The position numbers and the translations under genes were made by a program. Below, piece by piece: positions 15,401-30,787 of a stretch of 31,352 nt of DNA. The DNA comes from a virus. Position 1 is the first letter of the stretch. The number at the start of each line of letters is the position of its first letter. The notes below the pieces were generated by a model that was given only the letters and a program-made list of their open reading frames with translations, had not been told where the DNA came from and made no database searches. The stretch covers positions 1 to 31,352 of the IMG/VR virus record IMGVR_UViG_3300021365_000062, one strand, 5' to 3'.

Positions 15401-18400
15401 TCAAACAGTGAAGAAGCAACGCTGAATGGTGTTTACCAGGTATCATCAACGCCAGATCACAAAACGGTGATCTTCGATTACGCCGGTAATGTGGCATTCA
15501 TCCCAGCTCTGGAGGACGGATCTACAGCGGACAGTTACGGCAACGTGTACAGGTTCGTGTCCGTGAGATTAGCCACAATGGACAATGTGAATGATTTGTT
15601 GAACTATGATGATTTCGTAGACAAAAATGAGTCAATCGAACAACCAGGAGACAAGGTATATGCGGACAACAACGGGTCGGGATCATGGAGTGTGTACGAG
15701 AAGCAAGATCCTTATTCCACTAAGTTAACACTCTCACCGGACAATTTTACCGCGGAACAAGAGTTTGGACACAGGATAGTTGCACGTAATGATGGCAGGC
15801 TATTGGCTGTTTCCGCACCAGGGAAGGGACAAGGTGAGATACACTTCATGTTAAGATCAGAGGCCTCACCTGGGAATGATTTCAAATCACAGGCCACAGT
15901 GACGATGACGGACAACGACGACAACACCAGCAGGCTTGGTGAATCCCTGTCCATCAGCACAGACGATAATTATATTGTGGCAGGTGCGCCATTCGCCAAT
16001 GCGATCGGACCTGATGGTAGCACTAGATTCATCGATTCAGGCCTTATCAAGATATATGTTTGGGATCCTGTCTTATTCCAGTACAGCATATTGAACACAA
16101 TTTCAGCACCCACGGATGGGTCAAGTTCGAACGTCGACCTTAACTTTGGTTGGGCACACAAAATTTCAGAACCAAAAACACTATCAACCAGGACAACACC
16201 GGACAAGTACCTGTTCGTTTCGGCACCGGGACATGCCACAGACACAGGTAGAGTGTACATGTACACTTGGGGAGTTGGCGCTGATGGATCCACGTATGAC
16301 ACATGGACGTCAGAGACTGCGATAGAGGCACCAGATGGTGGTTCAGGACAAAGGTTCGGACACAGAGTTGAAGCAAACGACAACGGTGACATACTTGCAG
16401 TGAGCTCACTGGCACCCGGAAACGCAGGCAAGGTGGAGATATTCATAAAGACCTCACAAGCCAATGATGATAGTACACTTAATTCCTTTGCTCTGGCACA
16501 GACCATAACAGGAGTGGCCAGTGATGGGTCATCATTGAATACCGCTTTTGGTGATTCTATCACAATGAGCAAGGACGGCACAACGCTAGTGATCGGTGCA
16601 CCGGGAGTTGACGGAACAGCACATCCTGATTCAGGTGCCATCTATTATTACAAATGGAATGCAGACAGCTCTACAAACACGTATACCTTACAGCAAACGA
16701 TCACTGCACCAAGTTCGCACGCTAACATGAAGTTCGGTACAAGTCTAGATCTCAATGACGACGGATCGCGGCTTGTGATAGGAGCGGAAAACTTTGCCAG
16801 TTCAAGAGAAATGAAATTTGATTCTGGCGAGACCACATTTGATCTGCAGGACACAAACATAGTAGATCCCAACACTGAATCGGGAGGAGCATTCACGGCC
16901 ACTATGTACAACACCAAATTTGTGATTGATGACAGACTGACATCTGAGAACATGTCGGAGAGTGACGATTTTGGACGTGGTGTATGCATAATCGATAATT
17001 CAGTTTTCGTTGGAGCACCAAAAGATGACGGCAACACCGGCGGGGACGGAAGCACAAAGTTAGTGAATGATGGCACAGTTTCATGCTACGATCTCACAGT
17101 GATAGGCAAGTACGCTTGGAACAACATCGTAACAGAGACGGCGCTGATCGACACTGACAAATTGGGGAAAGTTTTTGATTTTGATGTGGGGAGCAAACAG
17201 ATACGAGGTTACTATGATCTTTACGATCCGGTCAAGGGCAGACTACTAGGTGTGGCAGACAGAGAGATCAACATCAAAACCGCATGGGATCCGGCCACCT
17301 ACAACGTGGGCGACAATGCAAACACAAGCACGCCATGGGCAGAGAATCATGTTGGAGAGGTATGGTGGGATCTTTCAACAGTCAAATGGTTGTGGTATGA
17401 GCAAGACACACAGGAATACAAACACAACCACTGGGGACAGATTTTCCCAGGTTCCAGCATAGACGTTTATGAATGGGTTGAATCGAGGGTGTTACCTAGC
17501 GAATGGAACCTAAGGACTGAACTGGCCACGCAGGTGTTGTCAGGCACGGCTCTGTACGGAGATGATTCACAGTACACAGTGACACAGAGATATGATTCGA
17601 GACTTGATACATTTGTGAATTACTATTACTACTGGGTGAAGGGCAAGACTAACATGCCTGCAAACAGTGTGGTTACAAGGAAAAACACCGTGGCATATGT
17701 TGCCAACCTAATTAGGAATCCAAGTGCATTCGACATACGATATTATTCGGTCACAGATACAAACAAGTTCATGATAAGCAACATCAAAGGTCTGTCGCAA
17801 GATTCGATAGTCCTTAACATGGATTTCAGGACCAACTCGTTCGACGGGGACGCACACAGCGTCTGGAAGTTGGTGAGGGAAGGTGACAAGGACTACAAAC
17901 CAGGACAGCAGATAGAGGCACGTTGGTGGGATTCTTTGATAGGCAAAAATTCAACAGGGGACCTTGTGCCAGATCCGGATCTCCCCGTCAACGATAGGTA
18001 TGGCAACAACACACGGCCAAGGCAGAGCTGGTACATCGACAGGTACGAGGCACTCAAGGAGATCATAGACTACGCCAACACAGTGTTGAAGAAAAAACAA
18101 TTGGTTGGCCAGATAAGTCTGACCAATCTAGATTCTGCAGATCCAGAACCCACAGCACAGAGTCTCGAATGGGACGCTTCTGTGCAGACATACGCTGAGT
18201 TGACCTACATCAACACAGGAGACTTATCGGGCACAGTGAACTACTTGGTCAAGGCAGACGAGACTGCCAACAACTTCTGGGCAATATACAACTGGGACGG
18301 CACTACATGGTCTAGGACCAAACTACAGAGTTACAACACTTCTGCCTATTGGAGTTACACGGACTGGTATGGCACGGATCCCGAAGTACACGAAATGGTC

Positions 18401-21400
18401 CATAGCGAAAACACACCCATTGACAAACAGGTCAAGTTCCAATACGAATTAGACACTTTAGACCTCGCGATAGGCAAACATGTAAAAGTAACAAACGCAG
18501 ACACAGGCGGTTGGAAACTTTTCATGAAGACAGCAGACGGGTTCAAAAATGTTGGTACAGAGAACGGCACGATCAGATTGAGCACCAGTCTCTATGACTA
18601 CTCACAGGACGCATTCGGATTCGCAGGCCAGGACATATTCGATGGAAACTTCTTTGACCAAGAACCCAGTGAGGAGACCAGAAAGATATTGACTGCATTG
18701 CGAGATGACTTGTTTATCAATGACCTCGCAGTAGAATACAACACTCTGTTCTTCACGGGATTGAGGAAAGTACTTTCGGAGCAGATATATGTGGACTGGA
18801 TGTTCAAGACGTCATTCATAAACGCAAAGAACAGTGTGAGACAATTAGATCAAAGGAAGTCATACACCACTGGGACAGATTCCTGGATTGAGAGCTACAT
18901 AAACGAGGTCAAGCCGTTCCACACAAAATTACGGGAGTACAAACTTGGGTACGACAAGACAGAGACACAGGACGGCATATACACGGATTTCGACAACCCA
19001 ACTTTCTATGATGCCACAACAGGCAAGATACGAAGCATCGACGTTGAGGGAGACACAGACAAGTTGACAGAATACCCACACCAGATGTGGTACGACTACC
19101 ACAAGAAGTATGTGCAGTCTATCACAGTGACGGCAGGTGGATCAGGATACGAAGTTGCACCAACGGTGACCATATTGGGCGGCACAGTGGGATCAACGGG
19201 ACCATTCCAGGTACAGGCGACCAGTTCAAGTGGTGCAACAAGTGGACAGTTCGGATACTACTATCCGTTGTTCACCAGTGAAAAACAGGCAGAGATCCAT
19301 GACACACAGAATTCAGGTTCGGGAACGACCAAGACATACACCTTTGACGGACTGACAGGCACATTCTACGGACCAACTGCTTCGACAATCGAGTCAACAG
19401 ATGTCAAGTCCACTGTGTTCAAGATGTATGTGACTCCAACAACCACGGGGGCCACTGCAACAGCAACGATACAAAGTGGGGCAGTAACCAAAATCACAGT
19501 CACAGGCATTGGTGCAAATTACACCACAACACCGACCATTGTTTTATCTGGTGGAAAGACAGACGGCACGACAGTGACGGACCAAGCAAAGGCATACGCA
19601 AATCTAAACAACGATCTGGTGAGAGATTTTGACACAACTATAAAATTTGACAGGGTGTCTAGCACATCCAGGGTTGTAGATTGGACGGCATCAACGGCAT
19701 ACGCCTACAATGATCTTCTGAGACACAACAATCAACTGTACAAAGTCACAAATGCCTTCACTGCTTCAACAGACTTCGACGACAACATAGGAAGCGTGTA
19801 CAAGGTGTACGGCAACGAGACAGGCCTTACAGCGGCCGACAGGACAAAAGGTTTCTACACACCAGGATCTGGAATGCCGGGCAATGAACTAGACCAAGTG
19901 ATGACCGGTGTTGACTATGGTGGTACAATGGTGACAGGTTTACTGTTTTCACAAGAATCGGGTTGGGACAACGAGGGTTGGTATGATTTCCCATGGGACA
20001 ACTACGGAGATTCGAAAGTGAAGGCCTTCAGAGCAGATGGTTCAACCGCGGCCTATACGTTTGCCACGGCACCTGCAAGTAGTGAAGTGTTTCAAGTTTA
20101 TATTACACAAGATGACAGCACAAGGAAAAAACTTCCAGATGTGATTAGGGGTGACGGCTCAACAGTGTCATTTACCATAAGTGAGACTGCAGAAGAGAAT
20201 GCATTGGTTGAATTTATACCTTTTGATGACGACGGAGTGCTTTCCCCAGTAGATGACAGGACATTAGATTCCATAGTCAAAGGAGGCCTGTTCACTTCAG
20301 CGTTGGGACAAGCACCAAGTGATATCATATTAGAGGGAGACGATTTCGTTTCTCCTGACACAAGTTACGCACCCGAGGAGACTGTTCCGGGACAGATATT
20401 TGACACGGTAGACATCAAAGTTTACACTTCACCGGAGTCTGGAGTGCCTTTCATATCAGACAAGAATTACAGAGGTGATGGTGTCACAACAGTTTTCAGC
20501 ATCGGTGACTTCCCAGGCACACTGGGATCAGTGACTGTGGCAGTGGATGGTGTCGTGCAGAAAGGCAGTGCATTGGATTCAACAGTGTCTGATTACACGA
20601 TCGATGTCGGTAACAAAACGATCACATTTGATACTGCACCCGCGAACCATACCAAGATATCTACTAAAGTTTTTGCGATATCCGGAGAGAACTACAGGGT
20701 GTTGAACACATTCACAGGGGATGGATCCACGACCGCTTACCTTACATCAACAAGGGGAGAATTCAATCTAGATTCAACCACATCGGACATCTACGTGACA
20801 GTGGATGGCGTGCCTACAACGGCACTCACGACATCCACTTCTGCAAACACGATAACGGTTACATTCAACACGGCACCGAATGCAGGCACATTTATCCAGA
20901 TTGCGGGATTCAACAAATCATCGACATCGACTAGAAGTTTTGCAAGTGTGAGGAATGAAGCAATAACATACGATGGTTCAACAAACAGGTATGCGTTGAC
21001 TTTCCCACCTGGTGCGATAGGACCATTCTCTGGTCTGACAACGGTCGAGGTCAATGGCAGGGTGCTACGTGGACCAGACAACACATATTACGTAGGAGAC
21101 GGAAGCACTTACACGTATGGTGTGGTTTCAGGATTGGAAGATGATTCAACAGTTGATCCTGCTAAAACTATTTCATCAGCATCGCAGGTAGAAGTTTTTG
21201 TGAATGGTGTCAAGAAAGATCTAAACACACACTACACAGTTGATACAGGAAATCAGAACGTGGAATTTGTTACTGCATCCGTTCCCACAACAACAGATGT
21301 GATTTGTATTTCAACATTGGTGGACAATCAGTACTTCGTAGACGGTGGCACAGATGCAGACCTAGTGCTAGTGCCTAGTGCGATAACATCACCTTACAGT

Positions 21401-22351
21401 TTGACTGCTAATGATGTGTTGTCAGTGACAACGTTCAACAATGCTCTTGGCATGAAACAGAGGAGAGAAGTACTTGAAGGAAGATCATCAGGCGTTTTCA
21501 AATTGAGATTTGACACTTTGAATGCTGGTTACACTTATGTGTGGCTGAACGGTGTGCAACTTTTACAGAGTAGTGACTACACGGTAAGCGGAAACACCGT
21601 CACAGTCAATGGAAGAACAATAACATCATCAGATAGGCTTGATGTCATGTACTTCGCAGTTGATTCAGCGGTCAGTGCCACAGGATTCAGGATATTCAAA
21701 GACATGATGAACAGGACGTTCTACAAACGTATTTCAAAAAATGCGACTACAAAATTAACAATAGATATGACAGAAGGCACACAAACAATCACAGTGGCAG
21801 ATGCAAGTGTGTTGCCAACACCAAACGCGGCAAGCAATACTCCAGGGGTCATATTCATAGACAAAGAGAGAATAGAATACTTTACATTATCAGGTAACAC
21901 GTTGGGACAACTAAGACGTGGAACACTTGGAACAGGAATTAAGGGGCATGGATCAGGCACGGAAGTGGTAGATGCGTCTGGTACTCAAACCATCCCTTAC
22001 GCAGACACAGTACACACCAACACCTTCACAGGCGACGGAAGTACACTGACGTTTGCACTATCACAAGCACCAGCCTCCGCTAGCGAGTTAGACATATTCA
22101 TTGGTGGCCAACGATTGTTGCTCACTAGCGAGGATGGATCAACCATAAACTACTCTGTGGACGGAAGCACCACTGCGGTTACATTAAGCACAGCACCTGC
22201 TTCGGGAACACAGATAAAGGTATTACACAAGAAAGGACAGGTATGGTACACGGCACTAGATGGTAATCCAGCGGATGGTAATGGATTACAGGCTTCTAGC
22301 ACACAACAGGCTAAATTCATTGCTAACGAGCCTACAAACGCACCTGAATAA
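9470..22351 (+). CDS. Giant baseplate wedge-like virion protein (gp7 position) with cupredoxin and beta-propeller domains
   Basis: 4293 aa, about 470 kDa, starting by TAATG overlap with gp6. The N-terminus (VQHLPAFYRTDANQRFLSST, LDPLVQKGSLERLDGFIGR, then NYREYYWMPDGPG near 165) resembles very large wedge proteins encoded after gp6 in marine T4-like phages; gp7 is inferred from position. Modules seen in order: residues ~180-289, cupredoxin with His221, Cys274, His277, Met280; ~690-755 and ~920-990, beta-modules; ~1135-1180, a core with GHWRGIYKYFYDTD and RPWEMFGHSEKP; W1661-W1697, a chitin-binding-like W...YQGKFYVA...W motif; ~2098-2525, seven FG-GAP repeats; ~2620-2670, VGEVWWDLSTVKWLWYEQ and FPGSSIDVYEWVES; ~3220-3365, a pair of GGSGY/PTV-type repeats split by a YYYPLFTSEKQAE module; ~3520-4255, DGST-bearing beta repeats. 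No transmembrane segment was seen. Role: baseplate periphery and perhaps surface binding. Confidence 0.75.
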   Translation: MADREINSLTNNEVVKQGNNEYRRTVQHLPAFYRTDANQRFLSSTLDPLVQKGSLERLDGFIGRQDATTREITDRYIGATSRDRFAYQLEPAVTYSDRDTTSVNPEDQVKFAATYDDYINQIKYLGGHTGNHDRLNKETVYSWNPAIDYDKLVNYREYYWMPDGPGAIEIDSVGPSAVSEYSVENLAKGAYNFTHRENVNNPSLTLYRGNTYKFNVNATGHPFYIMTEPYPSGVAADGSTSTIYDTGVTNNGAQYGTVTFTVPTGAPNTLYYQCGNHAAMYGILQIKDVSSTSTINVEDDIVGVKNYSLRTLDLSNGMKIKFTKSLVASSYQDKEYYVEGVGDAITLTDVEDLITPGSYATESTILYDQAGYDTRPYAKAFYTPETKDYISIKRDSLDQNAWSRYNRWFHKSVIDETARVGGFTPVLDEDDRAKRPIIEFDSGLALYNHGTVAKRSVTLYDTVTTDAFSDVVKQTGYSVDGLALADGMRIVFAADTDPLVKNKIYDVNFVTGGDSTLVINLTEASDANPADNDSIFIEFGTVNQGKTFRYDGTSESFIEAQEKTGVNQQPLFGMWDNDHTSFDDTTKYPNSTFTGAKAFAFATSDTATTDTVLGIKVKYSTINNVGDIVFDSDHTSGTFTYLSGSQTVTKNLAEGHLHYTTSRNTHNSRSAWIKRTNESKQRVVRTFIVDATETQLFPIDFFKDSADLTDLEVSVSVNGSRKTLSTDYTVETGTKNKYVKFTKELEVDDQIRIAGYSSADKVADKGIYEVPENLATNGLNQQLGTFTMGQVLDHVKNIFDRNQDVTGAIPGVSNLRDKPDARLKGGSIHQHEGALPPAMFGLIDQDANFITATDYGNQEYEKWYNAFLTHATGTAYEGTAADRVDEIIAAITPGRNSTFPFYYEDMVGWGQNASTRNYTVQGASQTDYALDSQHDITTLSNRAVYVYLNGVQLMLGADYTFSTTDDSVTVSKTLAQGDKIVIKDYADTTGSYLPPSPTKLGMYPKFTPETFTDTSYLTDTTVVRKHDGSIIKGYGDERDDLILELEKRIYNNIKVTYDPTLLDIHDVLPSAFTTTEYSLQEIDNVMGPDFYQWAGRNNVQYINNTVFSEGSPFTYNYARSKARLVDENLPGHWRGIYKYFYDTDAPHVRPWEMFGHSEKPTDWESTYGKAPYTSGNDVLWNAIATEPGRYGKPTIRDHLPVDASGNLLDPLAAQLVANYDIPGRQNAWKFGDQGPAETAWRRSSSYPFTVIKALALTKPAKFFSNFFDPSRLTTNTAGNQIDKDTSIRTSLATAKYHLETETNSTTGVTTRYQTAGYQPFIVNHLISRNLDVATFYYNKKKNLSVQLAYKLGGFTDKDNIKVLTDSVSPGSTSGSKFIPDENYKIMFRTSNPVESFQYSGVLIEKNTDISQDGSTVLGGYKVLGYSTVKPYFNFNYPVKTTSATPVSVEGSLVIKEYASYQQATQTIPYGHVFDTIQDVADFLAGYGNYLTQQGFRFDKFSNELKETLNWRNAVREFLFWTTQEWQPGSAITVSPAADGFELDTNNSIVGKLRNLAGDYSLLDSGGRKIDVSEISTKRIGKTFELSIKSDTVGLYNIALNTVQKEHILLFDNSTAFADKIYDPFTGFRQQRLKLVGWKTAGWNGDYYAPGFVFDAGQVTYWLANTDYTIGNSVEYQGKFYVAKTNHNSGSKFDTANWTLKDNKPAPQLIPNFEYKISQFNDFYNLETNNFDESQQKLAQRLTGYQSRDYLENLFVNDVSQYKFYQGYIREKGTQNAIDKILKAQYEGEDISLDLYPEWMIRTGRFGNTDSIENIQITLKSSEVTADPQSIELLDASSDSKEYTRALGVVQTDLYYKPVEYTASSTFKRYDYSQQGVTSDTVQVFKTAGYPQLTQVQHTAFKIADLANLDMNAITPNDLVWVANKSNLDWDVLRISNAGVKIATLSTINNASQLEITFTGSHKLSAGTTTAEADYFGISNSEEATLNGVYQVSSTPDHKTVIFDYAGNVAFIPALEDGSTADSYGNVYRFVSVRLATMDNVNDLLNYDDFVDKNESIEQPGDKVYADNNGSGSWSVYEKQDPYSTKLTLSPDNFTAEQEFGHRIVARNDGRLLAVSAPGKGQGEIHFMLRSEASPGNDFKSQATVTMTDNDDNTSRLGESLSISTDDNYIVAGAPFANAIGPDGSTRFIDSGLIKIYVWDPVLFQYSILNTISAPTDGSSSNVDLNFGWAHKISEPKTLSTRTTPDKYLFVSAPGHATDTGRVYMYTWGVGADGSTYDTWTSETAIEAPDGGSGQRFGHRVEANDNGDILAVSSLAPGNAGKVEIFIKTSQANDDSTLNSFALAQTITGVASDGSSLNTAFGDSITMSKDGTTLVIGAPGVDGTAHPDSGAIYYYKWNADSSTNTYTLQQTITAPSSHANMKFGTSLDLNDDGSRLVIGAENFASSREMKFDSGETTFDLQDTNIVDPNTESGGAFTATMYNTKFVIDDRLTSENMSESDDFGRGVCIIDNSVFVGAPKDDGNTGGDGSTKLVNDGTVSCYDLTVIGKYAWNNIVTETALIDTDKLGKVFDFDVGSKQIRGYYDLYDPVKGRLLGVADREINIKTAWDPATYNVGDNANTSTPWAENHVGEVWWDLSTVKWLWYEQDTQEYKHNHWGQIFPGSSIDVYEWVESRVLPSEWNLRTELATQVLSGTALYGDDSQYTVTQRYDSRLDTFVNYYYYWVKGKTNMPANSVVTRKNTVAYVANLIRNPSAFDIRYYSVTDTNKFMISNIKGLSQDSIVLNMDFRTNSFDGDAHSVWKLVREGDKDYKPGQQIEARWWDSLIGKNSTGDLVPDPDLPVNDRYGNNTRPRQSWYIDRYEALKEIIDYANTVLKKKQLVGQISLTNLDSADPEPTAQSLEWDASVQTYAELTYINTGDLSGTVNYLVKADETANNFWAIYNWDGTTWSRTKLQSYNTSAYWSYTDWYGTDPEVHEMVHSENTPIDKQVKFQYELDTLDLAIGKHVKVTNADTGGWKLFMKTADGFKNVGTENGTIRLSTSLYDYSQDAFGFAGQDIFDGNFFDQEPSEETRKILTALRDDLFINDLAVEYNTLFFTGLRKVLSEQIYVDWMFKTSFINAKNSVRQLDQRKSYTTGTDSWIESYINEVKPFHTKLREYKLGYDKTETQDGIYTDFDNPTFYDATTGKIRSIDVEGDTDKLTEYPHQMWYDYHKKYVQSITVTAGGSGYEVAPTVTILGGTVGSTGPFQVQATSSSGATSGQFGYYYPLFTSEKQAEIHDTQNSGSGTTKTYTFDGLTGTFYGPTASTIESTDVKSTVFKMYVTPTTTGATATATIQSGAVTKITVTGIGANYTTTPTIVLSGGKTDGTTVTDQAKAYANLNNDLVRDFDTTIKFDRVSSTSRVVDWTASTAYAYNDLLRHNNQLYKVTNAFTASTDFDDNIGSVYKVYGNETGLTAADRTKGFYTPGSGMPGNELDQVMTGVDYGGTMVTGLLFSQESGWDNEGWYDFPWDNYGDSKVKAFRADGSTAAYTFATAPASSEVFQVYITQDDSTRKKLPDVIRGDGSTVSFTISETAEENALVEFIPFDDDGVLSPVDDRTLDSIVKGGLFTSALGQAPSDIILEGDDFVSPDTSYAPEETVPGQIFDTVDIKVYTSPESGVPFISDKNYRGDGVTTVFSIGDFPGTLGSVTVAVDGVVQKGSALDSTVSDYTIDVGNKTITFDTAPANHTKISTKVFAISGENYRVLNTFTGDGSTTAYLTSTRGEFNLDSTTSDIYVTVDGVPTTALTTSTSANTITVTFNTAPNAGTFIQIAGFNKSSTSTRSFASVRNEAITYDGSTNRYALTFPPGAIGPFSGLTTVEVNGRVLRGPDNTYYVGDGSTYTYGVVSGLEDDSTVDPAKTISSASQVEVFVNGVKKDLNTHYTVDTGNQNVEFVTASVPTTTDVICISTLVDNQYFVDGGTDADLVLVPSAITSPYSLTANDVLSVTTFNNALGMKQRREVLEGRSSGVFKLRFDTLNAGYTYVWLNGVQLLQSSDYTVSGNTVTVNGRTITSSDRLDVMYFAVDSAVSATGFRIFKDMMNRTFYKRISKNATTKLTIDMTEGTQTITVADASVLPTPNAASNTPGVIFIDKERIEYFTLSGNTLGQLRRGTLGTGIKGHGSGTEVVDASGTQTIPYADTVHTNTFTGDGSTLTFALSQAPASASELDIFIGGQRLLLTSEDGSTINYSVDGSTTAVTLSTAPASGTQIKVLHKKGQVWYTALDGNPADGNGLQASSTQQAKFIANEPTNAPE
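10007..10336 (+). other. Cupredoxin domain inside the giant protein, copper ligands intact
   Basis: Residues ~180-289. NPSLTLYRGNTYKFNVNATG leads to His221 in GHPFYIM, then TVTFTVPTGAPNTLYYQCGN gives Cys274, and HAAMYG gives His277 and Met280. The Cys-x2-His-x2-Met loop has the same spacing as in amicyanin, and the upstream His supplies the fourth ligand of a type 1 copper site. The fold call rests on these motifs; metal binding is untested. Confidence 0.75.
15764..17040 (+). repeat. Seven FG-GAP (integrin-alpha-like) repeats, predicted seven-bladed propeller
   Basis: Each repeat begins FG (LG once), followed by a DG/DD turn and a hydrophobic strand ending in AP or a variant. Repeat starts are residues 2099, 2156, 2226, 2296, 2360, 2422 and 2501. 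Examples are FGHRIVARNDGRLLAVSAPG, FGDSITMSKDGTTLVIGAPG and FGTSLDLNDDGSRLVIGAE. Strands of the type G.IYYYKW or GRVYMYTW fall between them. The number seven matches the integrin alpha propeller. Integrin calcium loops (DxDxDG) are only partly matched. Confidence 0.7.
20030..22235 (+). repeat. Series of diverged beta-sandwich-like repeats with DGST turns in the giant protein's C-terminus
   Basis: About six to seven units of roughly 65-90 aa share the plan GDGST-x-hydrophobic strand, then V.V.DGV or VFVNGV, then DYT-type strand, then ITF..AP and I.V. Clear units start near 20040, 20470, 20710, 20970, 21090, 21475 (DGST turn lost) and 22022. Isolated related units occur near 11530 and 12230. 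They are protein-level repeats; I did not see long identical DNA repeats. Confidence 0.6.
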
Positions 22352-22360: not shown

Positions 22361-23086
22361 ATGACACAGGACAACAAACCAACAGAAGCAAAAGAAGACA
22401 ACAACAAGCCTCAGGATAACACGGGTGTTATGATGACGGGGCACATAAAGATTTCAGATCCAGAGACAGGTGAGGTCATCGTAGACAAGAGAAATGCGAT
22501 ACACTATGAAAACATGTCTCAGGCATTGGCCAATTCTTTGGCAAATAAATCTACAGGTTTCATACATGAAATAGCGTTAGGCAATGGTGGTACAACCGTT
22601 GACCCAACGGGAGTGATAACTTACCTTACACCAAATTCAACAGGTACCAACGCCGCTCTATACAACCAAACATATTACAAAGTCATTGACGACAATTCCA
22701 CAACCAACAAGGACACAACAAGGAACAAGATGGAGGTGAGACACACAGCGGGTAACAAGTTCACAGACATCGTTGTAACTTGTACTTTGGACTACGGTGA
22801 ACCAACAGGACAGGCGGCATTTGACAACACCACGGATTTCAACGGAGACTATGTGTTCGACGAGCTAGGACTCAAGAGTTGGGAAGGCACAGAGAACGGA
22901 GCAACAAACAAACTGTTGACACACGTGATATTCCATCCTGTACAGAAATCATTGAACAGACTGATACAGGTAGATTACACATTGAGAATACAATCATTAA
23001 CAACATTCACTGAGACTAGCTCAACTGCACTGTCAACATCAAACACAGTCAGTGGAACTACATCAGGTGGTAACACAGGATACTAA
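22361..23086 (+). CDS. Virion structural protein, probable baseplate/tail component (gp8 position)
   Basis: 241 aa. After a charged, disordered ~22-residue start (KEDNNKPQDN) it reads TGVMMTGHIKISDPETGEVI, VDKRNAIHYENMSQALANSL and FIHEIALGNGGTTVDPTG. I recognise this pattern from structural proteins encoded next to the baseplate genes of marine T4-like phages, but I see no similarity to T4 gp8 itself. The C-terminus (~215-241) is Ser/Thr/Gly-rich, reads TSNTVSGTTSGGNTGY, and looks like the tail of gp6. It follows the giant gene by nine bases and overlaps the next gene by TAATG. The role is inferred from position, and no catalytic motif was seen. Confidence 0.6.
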   Translation: MTQDNKPTEAKEDNNKPQDNTGVMMTGHIKISDPETGEVIVDKRNAIHYENMSQALANSLANKSTGFIHEIALGNGGTTVDPTGVITYLTPNSTGTNAALYNQTYYKVIDDNSTTNKDTTRNKMEVRHTAGNKFTDIVVTCTLDYGEPTGQAAFDNTTDFNGDYVFDELGLKSWEGTENGATNKLLTHVIFHPVQKSLNRLIQVDYTLRIQSLTTFTETSSTALSTSNTVSGTTSGGNTGY

Positions 23087-24816
23087 TGGCATACACTGTA
23101 AACAAGACAAGTAGTGGTTCGTACACGGTGCAGGATGGTGTGGTAAACACCCAGACTGATCTGAGCCTTATAGGTAAAGGATATGCAGGGTATGGAGAAT
23201 CCATAGCGGAGAACTTCCTACACCTACTAGAAAATTTTTCAAACACTTCAGCACCCACTAAGCCCATACAGGGACAGCTCTGGTATGACAGCAGTGAGTC
23301 TAGGCTTAAAGTATACACGGGCTCTAGTTTCGTCCCATCTGGCAGTAACGTTCCCTACCAAGCAACGGCACCTTCTACATTGGCACAAGGAGATATATGG
23401 ATAGATTCAGACACAGGACAACTTTTTTTCTACAACGGAACATCAAACATACTGATAGGACCAAGTACCTCATCTGGAACTAACACAAACGGATTCCTTT
23501 ATGAGACCATAACAGACGACACAGATACAAGTCAAAATGTTACAAAATGGTACAATGACGGAAACTTAATAGCAATAATATCTGAAGACACATTCACACC
23601 CAAGGCGGCCATTACAGGATTCGCCACAATCAAAAAAGGTGTGACTTTGACAACAGCAATTACAGACATAAAATTTCAAGGCACAGCCTCAGATGCAGAT
23701 TCACTGGGTGGAGTTGCGGCGGCCAACTATCTAAGATCCAACACGAATGACACGACGACTGGCACGATAGGAGTGCTCAACGACTCAGGACTGTCGGTTG
23801 GTGTTGACAGTGATTTAAATTTAGCAGTGGACAGCACGGGTGTCATCATACAGAACATCACATCAGATCAAGACATAACCTTCAAAGTGAACGATGGCGG
23901 TACTACAACAACATTAATGACAATGGACGGATCGGCGTCAAGGATAGGTATCGGTACTATAACTCCAACAACGAAGTTAGATGTGTCGGGCACTGTAAAC
24001 GCAACTGCATTCACAGGGCCAATCACAGGAAATGTCACAGGAAATGTAACAGGAAATGTCACAGGAGATGTTTCAGGTACAGTTACAGGTGGAGCAAGTC
24101 TAAACCTACTATTGACTGGTGGAACGCTCACAGGAACGGTCAACTCACGGGCTTTATTGCCAAGTGCGGACTCTACTTACAATCTGGGTACAGATGGCAC
24201 TAGATACGCAACTGCTTTCGTTGACACATTAGATGCCACGGAAGTAAAAAGTCAGGGTGTCACAATAAATGATAATTCTATTACAGCAAGTAGATCAAAC
24301 GATGACTTGGAAGTATCAGCATCAGGAACAGGTGATGTCAAAATTAATTCAAATGTAACACTTTCGGGGTCATTTGCTCAAGCCATACACACATTCGTAG
24401 AAACGGATGCCATTACAGCGACAGAACATGCCGGTAGAATTTTATTACTTGGCGAGGTTGGCGGAAACGCAGACGTCGTGCTTACACTACCAGATGCAAC
24501 AGGATCAGGAAATGTTTATGAATTTATAGTAAGCGTTACTATGGCTTCTAATACATACAAAATTGCTTGTCCAGATGCCAACAACACAATCACCGGACAA
24601 ATACAATACCTGGACGAGGATGGCACTGCGGCGGCATCATTCCCAACAGTGGCGGCATCAGACACCATCACGTTGAATGGTGGAACACAGGGTGGATTGG
24701 TAGGAGATACACTTACATTAATAGATATAGCGGCAGACAAATGGATGGTCAAAGGACTTATGCGGGTGGCGGCAGGAGCCAACCCAGCAACACCGTTTAG
24801 TGCGGCAGTCAGTTAA
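23086..24816 (+). CDS. Fibre-like virion protein, paralog A of a three-member family
   Basis: 576 aa. The N-terminal ~200 residues (LIGKGYAGYGESIAENFLHL, LENFSNTSAP, IQGQLWYDSS, GDIWIDSDTGQLFFYNG) are shared with the genes at 24832 and 29594. The motif echoes the N-terminal attachment domains of T4 gp10-type proteins (G..INENF), so I infer baseplate attachment. Residues ~205-280 (ANYLRSNTNDTTTG..., DITFKVNDGG) are shared with paralog B. Residues ~314-335 are a TGNV repeat. Residues ~435-576 form a separate beta-rich end with LPDATGSGNVYEFIVSV and SDTITLNGGTQGG, closing ATPFSAAVS; I recognise this type of end from other marine phage virion proteins. Start by TAATG overlap. Confidence 0.65.
   Translation: MAYTVNKTSSGSYTVQDGVVNTQTDLSLIGKGYAGYGESIAENFLHLLENFSNTSAPTKPIQGQLWYDSSESRLKVYTGSSFVPSGSNVPYQATAPSTLAQGDIWIDSDTGQLFFYNGTSNILIGPSTSSGTNTNGFLYETITDDTDTSQNVTKWYNDGNLIAIISEDTFTPKAAITGFATIKKGVTLTTAITDIKFQGTASDADSLGGVAAANYLRSNTNDTTTGTIGVLNDSGLSVGVDSDLNLAVDSTGVIIQNITSDQDITFKVNDGGTTTTLMTMDGSASRIGIGTITPTTKLDVSGTVNATAFTGPITGNVTGNVTGNVTGDVSGTVTGGASLNLLLTGGTLTGTVNSRALLPSADSTYNLGTDGTRYATAFVDTLDATEVKSQGVTINDNSITASRSNDDLEVSASGTGDVKINSNVTLSGSFAQAIHTFVETDAITATEHAGRILLLGEVGGNADVVLTLPDATGSGNVYEFIVSVTMASNTYKIACPDANNTITGQIQYLDEDGTAAASFPTVAASDTITLNGGTQGGLVGDTLTLIDIAADKWMVKGLMRVAAGANPATPFSAAVS
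24025..24090 (+). repeat. 12-bp tandem repeat encoding TGNV units
   Basis: Units ACAGGAAATGTC, ACAGGAAATGTA, ACAGGAAATGTC and ACAGGAGATGTT run without gaps, then decay (TCAGGTACAGTT, ACAGGT). They stay in frame and encode TGNV-TGNV-TGNV-TGDV-SGTV-TGG, a short beta-type shaft repeat common in phage fibres. Confidence 0.85.
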
Positions 24817-24831: not shown

Positions 24832-26277
24832 ATGGCGTACACAATTAACAAAACAGACGGAACAGCAATCACCACAATCACGGATGGAACGTCCGATAAC
24901 ACCACTACGTTGCAGTTGTTTGGAAAAAGTTTTTCAGGGTTCGGTGAAGGACTCAACGAGAACCTGGTTAAGTTATTAGAGAATTCAGCATCAACATCGG
25001 CACCCACAGCACCACTGAAAGGTGAGCTATGGATGGACACAACAACGAATCAATTAAAAGTCTACGACGGCACCAGTTTCAAACCCACTGGCGGAGCAAA
25101 ATCAAGTTCTAGCACACCAACAAACGCATCTGCGGGAGACCTATGGCATGACACAACAAATGATCAACTATATGTGTACACAGGCTCTGCGTTTCTATTG
25201 GTTGGTCCAGTTTACACTTCTGGACAGCAACTTTCGGGTTGGAAGATCGAGACACTGACCAGCTCAGGTGGTAACAAGGTTGTATCTTCCATGTATGCAG
25301 GCAACACACGGGTAGCAATTCTGTCCCTAGCGACTTTTACGCCTAGTGTCACACAAACAGGATTCGCATCAATCAAGGCAGGAATTACACTTAACTCAAC
25401 ACTGGGAGCAGTGTTCGAAGGTTCAAGCACACAGGCGGCCACTTTAGACACATCAGACACGACCAATGCATCATCACCAGGTGAGACATTACAAGGTGGT
25501 GCCAACTTCCTAAGGTCAAACGCGGCGGACACCACGACAGGTGCTCTGACCATTGACACGGACAGTGGTATTATCGTAGGTGACGCACAGGAATTAACAG
25601 TGACAGTCACCAGCAACAACGTGACAGTGGCACAGACTTCACAGGATAAAGATTTGAAATTCACAGTGAACGACGGTGGTGTCACAAAGACACCTCTACA
25701 GTTGACAGGAGCGGACGGCGGAGTTGACATCACAGGTGATGTCACAATAACAGGTAACTTAACAATATCAGGGTCATATGACAAGTCAAGTGTTGACGTT
25801 TCAACGTACACTGACACATTCATAGAAGTAAACTCAGGCCAGGCATCAGATGTCGACGGTGGACTAATAGTTGAACAGGCATCGGGCGTCGAGGCAAGGA
25901 TTTTCTGGGACACATCAGAACAATACTGGGCGGCTGGCAAGACAGGTGCATTAAACCAGGTCATCACGATAGCAGATGCAACAGACGATGGTGGTGCAAA
26001 CCACAGCAAAGTGCTCAAGGCATCATCGGCAGGTGGACTGACAATGGATTCAGTGACATTGGTCGCAGTCGGATCCGACATCACATCGTCAACTTCAGCC
26101 ACTGAAAAAGATGTACCAACCATAGCACAGGTGCAAAAGTCACTGAAACTATGGGGCGGTTCAACCATAAGTGATGACAGTAGCAACAGCATAGCAGGTA
26201 ACAGGTACGTTGAGACTTCGGCACCCTCATCTGGACAAGGTTCAAACGGGGATCTCTGGTTCGTAAGGGAGGCGTAA
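24832..26277 (+). CDS. Fibre-like virion protein, paralog B
   Basis: 481 aa. The N-terminal ~200 residues align with paralogs A and C (FGKSFSGFGEGLNENLVKLL, LKGELWMDTTTNQLKVYDG, GDLWHDTTNDQLYVYTG), though the first glycine motif is altered (FGKSFSGFG for IGKGYAGYG). Residues ~220-290 (ANFLRSNAADTTTG, LKFTVNDGG) match the middle of A. After GDVTITGNLTISG the C-terminal half diverges: FIEVNSGQASDVDGGLIVE, ARIFWDTSEQYWAAGKTG, and a last segment ending in GSNGDLWFVREA. The GDLWF ending is a repeat of the GDLW motif. Probably a fibre or baseplate-attached structural protein. A good ribosome binding site for the next gene lies in its last codons. Confidence 0.65.
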   Translation: MAYTINKTDGTAITTITDGTSDNTTTLQLFGKSFSGFGEGLNENLVKLLENSASTSAPTAPLKGELWMDTTTNQLKVYDGTSFKPTGGAKSSSSTPTNASAGDLWHDTTNDQLYVYTGSAFLLVGPVYTSGQQLSGWKIETLTSSGGNKVVSSMYAGNTRVAILSLATFTPSVTQTGFASIKAGITLNSTLGAVFEGSSTQAATLDTSDTTNASSPGETLQGGANFLRSNAADTTTGALTIDTDSGIIVGDAQELTVTVTSNNVTVAQTSQDKDLKFTVNDGGVTKTPLQLTGADGGVDITGDVTITGNLTISGSYDKSSVDVSTYTDTFIEVNSGQASDVDGGLIVEQASGVEARIFWDTSEQYWAAGKTGALNQVITIADATDDGGANHSKVLKASSAGGLTMDSVTLVAVGSDITSSTSATEKDVPTIAQVQKSLKLWGGSTISDDSSNSIAGNRYVETSAPSSGQGSNGDLWFVREA

Positions 26278-26281
26278 TCCC

Positions 26282-27709
26282 ATGGTAGCAGTCGTCAAGA
26301 CATTCAACTACACAGGTACTCTACAACAGGCAACCATTCCACCAGGCACTACATCCATTGATGTATACCTTTGGGCGGGAGCAGGTGGCGGCGGTGGTTC
26401 AGACGCAGGTGGTCCAGGTGGCCCAGGTGCGGCGGGACACCATGTGAAAAAAACAGCATTATCAATATCATCAGGACAGATCGGCACCACACTGGAAGTG
26501 GCAGTGGGTGGTGGCGGATCAGGCGGATCATCAGGAGGTGGTGCACCAGGTGGTACTAACGGAAAGAGCAAAACAGCATATTCAGGTGGCAGAGGCGGTA
26601 ACGCTGGACCCAACCCATACTCAGGATCAGGCGGAGGTGGCGGTGGAGCCACTGTCGTATTAATCGATAGCACAGCGGTCGCAACGGCTGGTGGCGGCGG
26701 CGGAGGAGCAGGAGCAGGCGCACACTCTAACGGAACACCCGGGATAAACACAAACTCAGCCACAACCAACACACCAGGCACACTGGGAGAGAACGGCAAG
26801 GACCACGCCGGAGATGGTGGTGGTGGTGGAGCCGGCGGTGGAGGTGCTGACGGTGGTAAATCAGGAAATGCTGGGGCAGGTGACAATGGCGGAACAGGCG
26901 GAAGGTCTGGATCAGATTTGGTACCATCAGGCGGTTCATCAAGTGTAGGGTCAAGTACGACACCAGGAGGCACAAGTGAAGCAAATTATACTGCAGGTGT
27001 GGCAGTGGGCGGACAGGCTAGCTCAACAGGCGCAGATGGAAAAGCGGTTGTCATATTCAACATAGGTGTGTCAGGAGAATTCAAAGTAGGCGGAGCATGG
27101 AAAAGCATCAACCAGGCATTCTTCAAAGTAGGCGGAGCATGGAAAAAAATCACAGCAGGTTATGTGAAGATAGGTGGGGCATGGAAGGCACTTTTCAACT
27201 CAGGGGTAACTTTCCTCTCAACAGCGGCAGGATTTGGTGACGCACAAGGCGGATCTAGTTCAGGCGGAGATGGTACTGGAGGCGGTTGTTTCATAGCAGG
27301 CACGATGATAACCATGCACGATGGTTCGTTGAAACCGGTCGAGCAAGTGGACATAGGCGACGCAGTAGCAGTGGGTGGCAAAGTGTTCGCGACAGGTAAG
27401 TTCTTGATAGACAACTTGTATGACTACAACGGAATACAGGTATCTGGAACACACATGGTCAAGGAAGATGGGGCATGGACAAGAGTTGAAGACAGCAGAA
27501 TAGGTAGATCACTAGGTGATGATGAGGTTATTGTATACGTGTTCGGTAACCAGAACAGAAGAATAATAATCAACGGCACAGAGTTCACAGACTACTTCGA
27601 ATTAAGCGAACAGCAGGAACTAATCAACCACGGCGAAGATATTTTTAGTAATTGGCAGGATCATGATAGACAGATACATGACAAAAATGTTAATATACTG
27701 AATGCTTGA
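26282..27709 (+). CDS. Glycine-rich adhesin-like virion protein with C-terminal Hint domain
   Basis: 475 aa; GGAGG at 26268-26272 supports the ATG at 26282. Residues 1-55 (FNYTGTLQQATIPPGTTSID, VYLWAGAGGGGG) match the glycine-rich domain of many phage tail-tip proteins. Residues ~30-250 are poly-glycine loops, as in gp38-type adhesins. Residues ~267-305 hold three FKVGGAWK-type repeats. Residues ~333-440 form a Hint (hedgehog/intein) domain: Cys336 in CFIAGTMITMHDGS, KPVEQVDIGDAV, and Thr390-His391 in VSGTHMV. In Hint proteins the Cys makes an N-S shift and the peptide can be cut before it. No C-terminal His-Asn and no C-extein are present, so it is not a splicing intein. Role: probable host-contact protein with self-processing. 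It overlaps the oxygenase gene by 8 nt. Confidence 0.72.
   Translation: MVAVVKTFNYTGTLQQATIPPGTTSIDVYLWAGAGGGGGSDAGGPGGPGAAGHHVKKTALSISSGQIGTTLEVAVGGGGSGGSSGGGAPGGTNGKSKTAYSGGRGGNAGPNPYSGSGGGGGGATVVLIDSTAVATAGGGGGGAGAGAHSNGTPGINTNSATTNTPGTLGENGKDHAGDGGGGGAGGGGADGGKSGNAGAGDNGGTGGRSGSDLVPSGGSSSVGSSTTPGGTSEANYTAGVAVGGQASSTGADGKAVVIFNIGVSGEFKVGGAWKSINQAFFKVGGAWKKITAGYVKIGGAWKALFNSGVTFLSTAAGFGDAQGGSSSGGDGTGGGCFIAGTMITMHDGSLKPVEQVDIGDAVAVGGKVFATGKFLIDNLYDYNGIQVSGTHMVKEDGAWTRVEDSRIGRSLGDDEVIVYVFGNQNRRIIINGTEFTDYFELSEQQELINHGEDIFSNWQDHDRQIHDKNVNILNA
27080..27189 (+). repeat. 42-bp-period repeat encoding FKVGGAWK units
   Basis: A near-identical 25-base block starting TTCAAAGTAGGCGGAGCATG begins at 27080 and 27122, with a diverged third copy at 27164, each 42 bp apart. 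The units encode FKVGGAWKSI, FKVGGAWKKI and VKIGGAWKAL, a short linker just before the Hint domain. Confidence 0.85.
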
Positions 27710-28370
27710 TAAATCCTTTTACCACGGCCTACAAGGCGAATGTTTCAAACAGATAAAAAAATATTTCCAAGAGATCAAGTACGAGTTCGACTCGCAACCA
27801 AACAAAGCATTCCTAGAGCCAGAGGATTTCTCAGACAGTGTCAGGGGACTCCCAGATGATTTCGACGACAAGTCAGGGGACTATGTTCATGGTGAATGGC
27901 AGGCACTAGGCATACAATCAGGAGAACACGAAGGCCAATCGTATAATGATTATCCAATACTGTATTCGATACTGCGGAAATTTCCTTATAAAACTAATGT
28001 AGCAATAATGACAGTTGGTCCTGACACAAAGATAGGCAATCACACAGACAACGAAGGTGGATGGAGATATCAGATGTGTTTGGATGACGGTGGTGGAGAC
28101 CAAAGTGGCATGCATGTAATGAATCTCGAGACTCGTAAACAGGAACTGATGACCTGGAAAACAGGAGAAGCGTTTGTATTTCAACCAGATATACAGGTAC
28201 ACAATGGTTTCAACAACAATCCAGGAGAGAGAACCACGTTATTAATTGACTTTTACAAGGAATCATTATACACTAAAGAGAAGTTTGAAAAGTATTACCA
28301 ACACTATTCAGAATGTTTTGAAGGGTTGGAAAATCTGGTAGATGTATATGAATCAAGAAAACAAAAATAA
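27702..28370 (+). CDS. Aspartyl/asparaginyl beta-hydroxylase-like 2OG-Fe(II) oxygenase
   Basis: 222 aa. The catalytic double-stranded beta-helix is visible: the iron ligand motif His114-Thr-Asp116 in GNHTDNEGGWRYQMCL, MTWKTGEAFVFQPDIQVHNG with distal His167, and Arg177 ten residues later in NNPGERTTLLIDFY, the expected 2-oxoglutarate carboxylate anchor. This spacing and the W-x-x-G-E-x-x-x-F pattern are those of the AspH/Asp_Arg_Hydrox family, which hydroxylates Asp, Asn or Pro-type residues in proteins or peptides. All key residues are present, so activity is plausible; the substrate is unknown. Its ATG lies inside the end of the Hint-adhesin gene (8-nt overlap, ATGCTTGA), suggesting coupled translation and perhaps action on that protein. 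It overlaps the SDR-like gene by 29 nt. Confidence 0.75.
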   Translation: MLDKSFYHGLQGECFKQIKKYFQEIKYEFDSQPNKAFLEPEDFSDSVRGLPDDFDDKSGDYVHGEWQALGIQSGEHEGQSYNDYPILYSILRKFPYKTNVAIMTVGPDTKIGNHTDNEGGWRYQMCLDDGGGDQSGMHVMNLETRKQELMTWKTGEAFVFQPDIQVHNGFNNNPGERTTLLIDFYKESLYTKEKFEKYYQHYSECFEGLENLVDVYESRKQK

Positions 28371-28935
28371 GATTGCTGTAATCGGCCACACCCGGGGAAT
28401 AGGTAAAGCCGTAGCCGACCTATACAAGAAAAAAAAATACGAAGTGGTTGGAATGAGTAAAAGCAATGGATTCGACATAATTCACGATCAAGAAAAGATA
28501 ATAGGAAATATAGAGGATTGTAATCTCGTGGTTTTGAACGCACACGCAGACAAGGGACAGTTGAACGTACTCAAAAGGATATACGGTCAACATTCATTCA
28601 GCAATATGAAAGTCGTCGTAATAACAAGCACATCAGGCTTGGAAGAGGACCCAGATTACAACCAATTTCAAGTTTGGGACAAGTTCAAGTATGTTCAGTA
28701 CTGTGAAATCAAAAAAGAACTGATAGAATACATTGAAGAATTGCAAGACGAATTACTATCAAAACCATTATCGGTGTATGATGTGTGTCCTGACGTGGTA
28801 GACACAGACATGACCAAAGGCCTGTGGGAAGACCTACCCAAGTTGACAGCAGACGAAGTGGCAGAAGCAGTGAGATACTGTTTTGAATCAACATTTAATA
28901 TTAACAAGATAGTGATCCAAAAAAATGCAAGATAG
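28342..28935 (+). CDS. Short-chain dehydrogenase/reductase-like protein
   Basis: 197 aa, shorter than the usual ~250. It has a Rossmann start KIAVIGHTRGIGKAVADLY (residues ~10-28) with the glycine motif GHTRGIG at 15-21 in place of TGxxxGIG, then a strand ending VVLNAH where NNAG would stand, TSTSG as the likely catalytic serine region, and Tyr120-x3-Lys124 (YCEIK) as the SDR catalytic pair. DVCPDVVDTDMTK matches the PGxVxTxM region. It is therefore a plausible NAD(P)-dependent oxidoreductase, although the reduced size and changed NNAG motif make the substrate unpredictable. A second ATG at 28348 could be the true start; neither has a clear ribosome binding site. The block from 27702 to 29389 looks more A/T-rich than the structural genes. 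Confidence 0.65.
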   Translation: MYMNQENKNKIAVIGHTRGIGKAVADLYKKKKYEVVGMSKSNGFDIIHDQEKIIGNIEDCNLVVLNAHADKGQLNVLKRIYGQHSFSNMKVVVITSTSGLEEDPDYNQFQVWDKFKYVQYCEIKKELIEYIEELQDELLSKPLSVYDVCPDVVDTDMTKGLWEDLPKLTADEVAEAVRYCFESTFNINKIVIQKNAR

Positions 28936-29389
28936 ATTATGGGACAGAGATAAAGATTACGACACACTGGTCAAGTGGTGGGCTGACTGGGAGTTTGGCA
29001 AAGTGCCTAAAGAATGTTTGCCACCGGATGGTATCGTTGTTGAACACGATAGTGAACCCGTTTGTGCCGCTGGATTGTACATAGGTGTTGGCACACAGTT
29101 TGCGTTCATGGAATGGATAGTGACAGACAAGAATGCAGAACAACGGCTAGTACATAGATGTTTAAAATTGTGTATTAATCGCATAATGGAACTAGCCAAG
29201 CAAAAGGGTATGAAATTGGTGTACACAGCCACAAAAGAACAGGCGTTACACAAAAGATATCAGAAGTACCACAACATGATTCTCACAGAGAGTGGGGTAA
29301 AAACATTCCTGCGGGACTTAGACGGTGCATATTCAGAGGATTTAACTTGGATATCAGACGATGAGCAGATAGAATCACGTAATAAATAA
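28925..29389 (+). CDS. GNAT-like N-acetyltransferase
   Basis: 154 aa. The pattern is LVKWWADWEFGKVPKECLP, then DGIVVEHDSEPVCAAGLYIG, FAFMEWIVTDKNA, a helix ending MELAKQKGMKLVYTAT, and KRYQKYHNMI. That order of strand-strand-helix-strand, including the 'EWIV.D' beta-bulge strand and the last 'G.K.V...' strand, fits small phage-encoded GNAT proteins. A clear Q/R-x-x-G-x-G/A acetyl-CoA loop is not visible (the place reads AEQRLVHR), so catalysis is uncertain. It overlaps the SDR-like gene by 11 nt. Its stop codon TAA lies inside a late promoter-like box, marking the end of the four-gene block. Confidence 0.55.
   Translation: MQDRLWDRDKDYDTLVKWWADWEFGKVPKECLPPDGIVVEHDSEPVCAAGLYIGVGTQFAFMEWIVTDKNAEQRLVHRCLKLCINRIMELAKQKGMKLVYTATKEQALHKRYQKYHNMILTESGVKTFLRDLDGAYSEDLTWISDDEQIESRNK
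29381..29388 (+). promoter_or_regulatory. Late promoter-like box AATAAATA overlapping the GNAT stop
   Basis: AATAAATA is one mismatch from TATAAATA and overlaps the GNAT TAA (29387-29389). It is followed by a ribosome binding site and the small gene at 29408. The same eight bases occur across the stop of the giant gene at 22347. Confidence 0.45.
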
Positions 29390-29393
29390 GCAT

Positions 29394-29399
29394 AAGGAG
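29394..29399 (+). promoter_or_regulatory. Strong ribosome binding site for the 60-aa gene
   Basis: AAGGAG lies eight bases before the ATG at 29408. It is one of the few good Shine-Dalgarno sequences in the window that is outside a coding region, and it fixes the start of this short gene. Confidence 0.75.
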
Positions 29400-29593: not shown

Positions 29594-30787
29594 ATGGCAT
29601 ACAAGATAAACAATTCATTTGGAACACTGTTGGTCAGTTTGGCCGATGGAACCATAGACACAGCGACAACCGACATTGCCCTGATAGGAAAAGGGTATGC
29701 AGGATTTGGTGAGAAGTTGAACGAAAACCTTGTAAAGCTCTTAGAAAATTTTAACAACACAACTGCACCCAACAATAAAGTCCAGGGTCAACTTTGGTTT
29801 GACCAAACCAACAAACGTATGAATGTATGGACAGGTGACAAATGGAGACCTGCAGGTGGTCCTACAAACTCCGCATCAGCACCAACCAATGCCGTGCAAG
29901 GAGACTTGTGGTTTGACACAACAAACACACAACTCAAAGTGTGGACAGGAACGGTATGGACTTTGATCGGACCGAGTTCGGTGGCAGGATCGGGAGTGAC
30001 AGCGGTCGTCTCAGAGACATCACCAGACAACACAGGATCGAACCAGACATATTTGAAGTTGGTGGCCAATGACGCGGTAGTAGGTGTGGTATCAAACGTG
30101 GCATTCACGCCAAGTGGCACAGACGCCACGGCACAGGCTTTGGTCTCAGCGGGTTTCTCCACGGTGGCACAGGGTATACAACTTTCTTCAGCGGTTGGAT
30201 CAGCCAGTTTCAGAGGAAGTTTGACTGGTACGGCAGACATAGCCACGAGCGTGACAGTTTCAGCAAACAACACAACCAACGAGACTTGTTTTATTGCATT
30301 CGTTGACGGAGCGACCGGCACACAGGGCATTGAAACAGACACAGGCCTGAGCTACAATCCAAGCACCAATGTGCTCACGACCACTGCCTCACAGGCGCAG
30401 TACGCTGACTTGGCCGAGCGTTACGAAGCAGATTGCGACACAGAAATTGGAGACGTGGTGATTTTAGGTGGTAAAGCAGAGATAACAAAATGTAATGAGG
30501 ATCTATCTGACGCCGTGTTTGGTGTGATATCAGAATCTCCGGCCTTGCTGATGAATGCAAAGGCGGGCGACAACGATTCGCATCCTATGGTGGCGTTTAC
30601 AGGGCGGGTGATGGTCAAACTGCAGGGCACAGGCAAAGCAGGAGACCGTGTGGTATCAGCAGGCAATGGTGAGGCCAGAGTGGCTGACCTGGACAAATGT
30701 ACCGCTTTTAATACTCTAGGTAGGTTGATCAAGGATAAATATTCGCAAGACACACAATTAACAGAGTGTGTGATAGGAGTAAAGTAA
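29594..30787 (+). CDS. Fibre-like virion protein, paralog C, with peptidase-G2/IMC-like C-terminus
   Basis: 397 aa. The N-terminal ~200 residues match paralogs A and B (LIGKGYAGFGEKLNENLVKL, VQGQLWFDQTNKRMNVWTG, GDLWFDTTNTQLKVWTG). Residues ~215-265 include CFIAFVDGATGTQGIETDTG and a LSYNPSTNVLTTTASQAQ segment. Residues ~268-397 begin YADLAERYEADCDTEIGDVV and continue VFGVISESPALLMN, HPMVAFTGRVMVKLQG and GDRVVSAGNG. This resembles the C-terminal intramolecular chaperone/self-cleavage domain of peptidase family G2 seen in phage appendage proteins; the match is by pattern memory, so moderate. Such domains help fibres trimerise. No ribosome binding site is visible in the 3-bp gap after the 60-aa gene, so coupling is likely. 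Confidence 0.65.
   Translation: MAYKINNSFGTLLVSLADGTIDTATTDIALIGKGYAGFGEKLNENLVKLLENFNNTTAPNNKVQGQLWFDQTNKRMNVWTGDKWRPAGGPTNSASAPTNAVQGDLWFDTTNTQLKVWTGTVWTLIGPSSVAGSGVTAVVSETSPDNTGSNQTYLKLVANDAVVGVVSNVAFTPSGTDATAQALVSAGFSTVAQGIQLSSAVGSASFRGSLTGTADIATSVTVSANNTTNETCFIAFVDGATGTQGIETDTGLSYNPSTNVLTTTASQAQYADLAERYEADCDTEIGDVVILGGKAEITKCNEDLSDAVFGVISESPALLMNAKAGDNDSHPMVAFTGRVMVKLQGTGKAGDRVVSAGNGEARVADLDKCTAFNTLGRLIKDKYSQDTQLTECVIGVK

Follow-up and report, generated by a model that had tools for sequence, protein, structure and literature searches.

A four-gene block among fibre genes

The window, a 31-kb virus fragment (31,352 nucleotides), carries T4-type baseplate genes upstream of a block of four overlapping genes that lies between fibre paralogs and comprises the following features.

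26282–27709, + strand: Hint-bearing virion protein (475 aa), from the open reading frame list and homologous in all close relatives
27287–27601, + strand: Hint domain proper, with the Cys1 codon at 27287; model residues 1–105 match BIL and intein structures
27602–27706, + strand: helical C-terminal tail, residues 106–140 of the domain, with two predicted helices past the Hint fold
27702–28370, + strand: AspH-like Fe(II)/2-oxoglutarate oxygenase (222 aa; PF05118, E = 2e-10)
28342–28935, + strand: short-chain dehydrogenase/reductase (SDR) (197 aa; PF00106, E = 1e-7)
28925–29389, + strand: GNAT-fold protein (154 aa), last in the cassette, assigned from its structure model; phrog_17252 (function unknown)
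29381–29399, + strand: AATAAATA and AAGGAG, the latter the ribosome-binding site of the following gene (29408), kept in 12/12 relatives

The four open reading frames overlap by exactly 8, 29 and 11 nt, as the first-pass annotation had stated, and the two flanking fibre paralogs that it described are real, phrog_15511 being common to 23086–24816, 24832–26277 and 29594–30787. About 26 close IMG/VR relatives contain the four genes in identical order, flanked by the same fibre paralogs and with near-equal overlaps (8 or 11 nt, mostly 20–35 nt, and 11 nt), at protein identities of 48–93%. The Hint-bearing protein consists of a glycine-rich adhesin-like N-terminal part, KxGGAWK repeats at residues ~267–310 (where residues 267–310 match phrog_25859), a flexible glycine linker and the C-terminal Hint domain. 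Elsewhere in the tail module, 9470–22351 is a single open reading frame of 4293 aa.

The description of the block as a distinct unit is less well supported. On its 3′ side, the next gene has its own conserved box and ribosome-binding site. On its 5′ side, the Hint gene starts 4 nt past the stop of the preceding fibre gene and, because of this short gap, probably shares a transcript with it; judged from the gene layout, the block is probably expressed together with the fibre genes. The AATAAATA/AAGGAG element on the 3′ side has one base different in one of 12 relatives, and AATAAATA corresponds to the T4 late-promoter word TATAAATA with one mismatch; the window contains 20 TATAAATA-like words, which is no enrichment over the 15.6 expected.

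Structure and conservation of the Hint domain

The Hint domain scored weakly in Pfam (best 0.01), and a sequence search against the PDB returned weak intein stretches only. Its AlphaFold model (pLDDT 89.7) bears out the assignment, superimposing on the BIL2 domain of Tetrahymena with a Z-score of 12.9 (rmsd 2.1, 107 residues). Among 133 unique Hint relatives, C1, F2, H56 and D102 are invariant, and the residue at position −1 is glycine in 120. The predicted cleavage site is thus Gly|Cys-Phe, with Cys1 as the nucleophile and His56 as the block-B histidine; Hedgehog proteins likewise have a Gly-Cys-Phe cleavage site.

The C-terminal His-Asn of splicing inteins and A-type BILs is absent, and T101-D102 occupies its place. 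Model residue 102, the invariant aspartate, is paired with the residue at which the alignment ends in the inteins 6rix (residue 145) and 6qaz (residue 125). Since Asp102 stands where inteins carry their terminal asparagine, no splicing is expected, and the domain is predicted from these residues to perform N-terminal cleavage or transfer without splicing. We regard autoprocessing by this domain as fairly probable. In the helical tail, L112 and F120 are kept in >95% of the relatives, and the modelled segment is a candidate for docking or adduct recognition. The near-invariant C-terminal Asn139 was considered as a catalytic residue and rejected, because its codon overlaps the ATG of the next gene and its conservation is therefore not independent evidence.

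The three enzyme-like proteins

Profile scores uphold the identities proposed for the two middle genes, with 41.1 bits for the AspH-like oxygenase (cut-off 22.6) and 31.8 bits for the SDR (cut-off 26.6). The metal- and 2-oxoglutarate-binding residues H114, D116, H167 and R177 of AspH (HxD...H...R) are invariant in 48/48 sequences, as are the GxxxGxG motif, the serine and Tyr120-xxx-Lys124 of the SDR in 42/42. A sequence search of AspH against the PDB yielded nothing useful; marginal matches link AspH to OlsC, a lipid acyl hydroxylase (E = 0.017), and the SDR to FabG-type reductases.

The last protein went undetected by Pfam and NCBIfam, and a PDB search by sequence gave nothing useful for it. 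Its AlphaFold model (pLDDT 90.5) has the GNAT fold (best Z-score 16.2, rmsd 2.1, 132 residues), and its best structural neighbours are ordinary acetyltransferases, among them the aminoglycoside enzyme AAC(6′)-Ii, RimI and Ard1, tied at Z-scores of ~15–16. Foldseek matches include 4cry and 4crz, which we take to be PanD–PanZ entries, among hundreds of others, and PanZ is not specifically favoured. The (Q/R)xxGx(G/A) acyl-CoA P-loop is not found in this family: its glycine position (77) is occupied by His, Phe, Tyr or Val in 125/125 sequences. The β4 residue Glu63 is present in 82 of the 125, Tyr or Trp taking its place in 41, and Tyr112 is present in 124; the protein in the window has His77 in place of the P-loop glycine and keeps both Glu63 and Tyr112. 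Thus the GNAT assignment of the first-pass annotation stands for the fold, whereas the amine acetylation expected of it is doubtful: with the P-loop glycine missing and the β4 glutamate variable, the protein need not be an acetyltransferase. PanZ, which has a GNAT fold, triggers the self-cleavage of PanD but does not use PanD as a substrate for acetylation (PMC4410942). By analogy, a PanZ-like processing partner appears at least as likely a role for the phage protein as amine acetylation.

Linkage across viral contigs

Separate profile scans seeded on GNAT, Hint, AspH and SDR were run against 2.9 million viral contigs of IMG/VR, each taking the best 80 matches per query, a depth at which very divergent Hint domains without GNAT could escape. 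Among the matches listed, 131 of 137 unique Hint C-termini are followed by GNAT, the other six ending at a contig end 1–701 nt later, and 127 of 131 unique GNATs are preceded by Hint, the remaining four starting at a contig edge. All 49 AspH and all 42 SDR genes among these matches lie inside a Hint–GNAT cassette. Wherever contig ends allow, therefore, the linkage is complete among the matches listed (Hint 131/131, GNAT 127/127, AspH 49/49, SDR 42/42), and the check for enzymes occurring independently of Hint found none. The same gene set beside Hint in other phages, for which a search had been proposed, is present in the IMG/VR relatives (131/131 Hint domains with enough downstream sequence, among the matches listed).

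The order among these matches is fixed as Hint, optional AspH, SDR and AspH2, and GNAT, with no other intervening gene seen between Hint and GNAT; the arrangements counted are Hint-GNAT (88), Hint-AspH-SDR-GNAT (40), Hint-AspH-SDR-AspH2-GNAT (2) and Hint-AspH-AspH-GNAT (1). As AspH and SDR are missing from most cassettes, the Hint–GNAT core pair functions without them. In 11 records of 37–197 kb, one Hint of the window's family and one GNAT are present in each, adjacent to one another; in one of these records, the Hint protein also shows a second match to Hint, a partial one. The Hint scan also recovered a GNAT branch ~35% identical to that of the window, which was missing from the first GNAT scan. 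Hint and GNAT divergences are correlated (r = 0.59, Mantel p = 0.001), as expected from co-inheritance, a correlation that relatedness alone can produce. We are highly confident that the Hint–GNAT module is real and widespread.

Two further observations concern the surroundings of these genes. In L343, two more 2-oxoglutarate/Fe(II) oxygenase-like genes (10268–11378) lie soon after the Hint-AspH-AspH-GNAT cassette. More distant GNAT relatives (~30%) occur in or beside virion-gene regions of the Bacteroidota phages Panino, phi46:3 and Gundel_1 (L110:5878–6387, L112:6001–6411 and L113:5974–6384), and Hint is absent from the upstream genes read in Panino and phi46:3.

Carrier proteins and phage types

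The Hint domain is borne by unrelated proteins. Besides the glycine-rich T4-like adhesin of the window type, its carriers include a DUF4815 protein of 1640–1740 aa (after a baseplate wedge gene in L101), a 377–398-aa glycine-zipper protein (L096) and a protein of 1143 aa that includes a transglycosylase-like stretch (L068), the latter two lying between the portal and major capsid genes, and low-complexity proteins of ~500–1100 aa (L178, where the carrier adjoins virion and ejection-protein genes, and L188). Because the carriers are unrelated and the Hint–GNAT pair is constant, the enzymes belong with the Hint domain and not with the adhesin. The earlier idea that the enzymes serve the Hint adhesin is accordingly retained in part: their constant partner is the Hint domain, amid virion genes, but the glycine-rich adhesin is not constant and AspH and SDR are optional.

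Both T4-like phages with Gp23 and podovirus-like contigs contain the pair, and the module is thus common to T4-like and podovirus-like ocean phages. A related 197-kb record contains the Gp23 major capsid gene and lacks psbA. A cyanophage origin was considered and set aside, psbA being found in 0/11 related records, which are partly fragments, so that its absence is not conclusive. The nucleotide search against named phages gave no match to the window, nor did Hint or AspH match any of them, and no cultivated phage of the collection has a Hint of the window's family. A Hint search of 84,980 genome species returned a single match, on a 15-kb MAG contig that is probably phage, and a search of the defence library had no match. 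The contig L277, binned in the MAG Verrucomicrobia bacterium TMED56, carries a window-type cassette; it is probably a phage contig, and the binning is no evidence of host.

A second, canonical Hint domain ending in VVHN is present in 14 carriers, and none of these 14 cassettes has AspH or SDR. In L059, L079, L156, L174 and L177, a second canonical Hint, ending in VVHNKG, lies just upstream of the window-family Hint.

Proposed mechanism and alternatives

We propose, tentatively and at just under an even chance for the scheme as a whole, that the block belongs to a class of modular cassettes for processing virion proteins. In such a cassette, the Hint domain at the C-terminus of a virion protein would undergo an N-to-S acyl shift at Gly|Cys-Phe, and the resulting thioester would be hydrolysed or handed to a different nucleophile, so that the virion protein is released or given a new tail. 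The downstream GNAT-fold protein would be dedicated to the Hint domain as its partner and, in preference to ordinary acetylation, would bind and activate Hint as PanZ does PanD, or guide acyl transfer; its exact role as a processing partner is plausible rather than probable. Where present, the AspH-like oxygenase(s) would hydroxylate, and the SDR would oxidise or reduce, either a residue in the Hint protein or a small molecule that Hint accepts. We infer the cleavage, the physical contact between Hint and GNAT, and the substrates. As counterpoints, a P-loop with the Gly-to-His change may still bind CoA, and the window protein, which keeps Glu63 and Tyr112, could be an active acyltransferase. 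The ordinary acetyltransferases among its best structural neighbours and the distant GNAT relatives of Bacteroidota phages, beside which no Hint was seen, also speak against the scheme. It is conceivable, but very unlikely, that GNAT takes the Hint thioester as acyl donor and joins the C-terminus of the virion protein to an amine, an acceptor that AspH and SDR would make ready; Hint-thioester transfer by a repurposed GNAT would then constitute a phage covalent-ligation system.

The same absolute linkage of the enzymes to Hint (among the matches listed) is also expected if the cassette modifies virion proteins post-translationally, an active GNAT acylating a lysine or a cleavage-freed N-terminus of the Hint or another virion protein, AspH hydroxylating and SDR oxidising or reducing side chains, as in the tailoring of peptide natural products. 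The intact active sites of AspH and SDR, the presence of Glu63 (82/125) and Tyr112 (124/125) where GNATs usually have their catalytic residues, and the N-terminal protein acetyltransferases RimI and Ard1 among the closest folds are consistent with such modification. However, the P-loop glycine is missing in all 125 sequences, Glu63 is lost in 41 of them while the Hint linkage persists, and no Asp or Asn in the Hint alignment convincingly tracks the presence of AspH; we consider this reading rather unlikely. A Hedgehog-like transfer, in which a small amine or alcohol, produced or supplied by AspH, SDR and GNAT, attacks the thioester of Hint and leaves a chemical tag (a membrane or surface anchor) on the virion protein, would account for the Gly|Cys-Phe site with its conserved Cys and His, the match of the Hint fold to the Hog structure 6tyy (Z-score 11.5), the predicted helical tail at the position where Hog proteins carry their adduct-recognition region, and the resemblances to OlsC and FabG-type reductases. 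Most cassettes, though, do without AspH and SDR, and we view such a transfer as distinctly unlikely.

That the enzymes are host-directed auxiliary proteins, or chance neighbours in a late operon with tail genes, is in keeping with the 2-oxoglutarate oxygenases common in T4-like cyanophages, whose proposed target is host metabolism (PMC3037559), and with the further oxygenase-like genes close by in L343. Against this, unrelated phage types keep this gene set, identically ordered, beside Hint only (among the matches listed), a linkage that already disfavours either version and makes both highly improbable. Hint domains are part of the intein superfamily, and the second canonical Hint in 14 carriers might likewise suggest the degenerate remnant of a selfish intein that carries passenger genes. 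Yet the Hint active-site residues are invariant in 133/133, which means strong purifying selection, and the domain is always C-terminal and always accompanied by GNAT among the matches listed, so that a remnant is almost certainly not what the cassette represents.

Comparison with known systems

The processing cassette that we favour can be compared with several known systems. Like the BIL domains, which are its best structural matches (Tetrahymena BIL2, Z-score 12.9; C. thermocellum BIL, 12.1), the phage Hint is expected to cleave without extein ligation; unlike A-type BILs, it lacks the His-Asn end and is always C-terminal with a dedicated partner gene. As in Hedgehog Hog domains, the Hint is C-terminal, its Cys and His are conserved, and an extra segment comes after it, which in Hog proteins is the adduct-recognition region (ARR; PMC2362128). 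By contrast, the phage domains have virion carriers and linked GNAT, AspH and SDR genes. PanD–PanZ (PanM) provides a precedent in which a protein of GNAT fold serves a partner that processes itself, a likeness of fold and gene logic only: PanD relies on a serine and a pyruvoyl group and PanZ requires CoA, whereas the phage module has predicted Cys/Hint chemistry and a P-loop without glycine. Finally, T4-like cyanophages also encode 2-oxoglutarate oxygenases, asparaginyl β-hydroxylases included (PMC3037559), but relatives of the window's AspH occur only between Hint and GNAT (among the matches listed), and the 11 related, partly fragmentary records are without psbA.

The constant linkage points to a two-part Hint–GNAT system for virion protein processing that is undescribed as far as our literature search went, in which we found no paper connecting a phage Hint domain with GNAT or AspH. 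That ocean myoviruses and podoviruses carry a Hint domain with a strictly linked GNAT-fold partner on virion proteins unrelated to one another suggests a so far unrecognised means of processing or tagging such proteins. The module joins self-cleaving domains with tailoring enzymes, its genes are short and directly testable by expression, and it could yield new tools for protein cleavage or ligation. Beside it, the fibre paralog that follows the block (29594–30787) contains a Peptidase_G2-like region, of the autoproteolytic intramolecular chaperone type, and may thereby place a second type of self-cleaving domain next to Hint.
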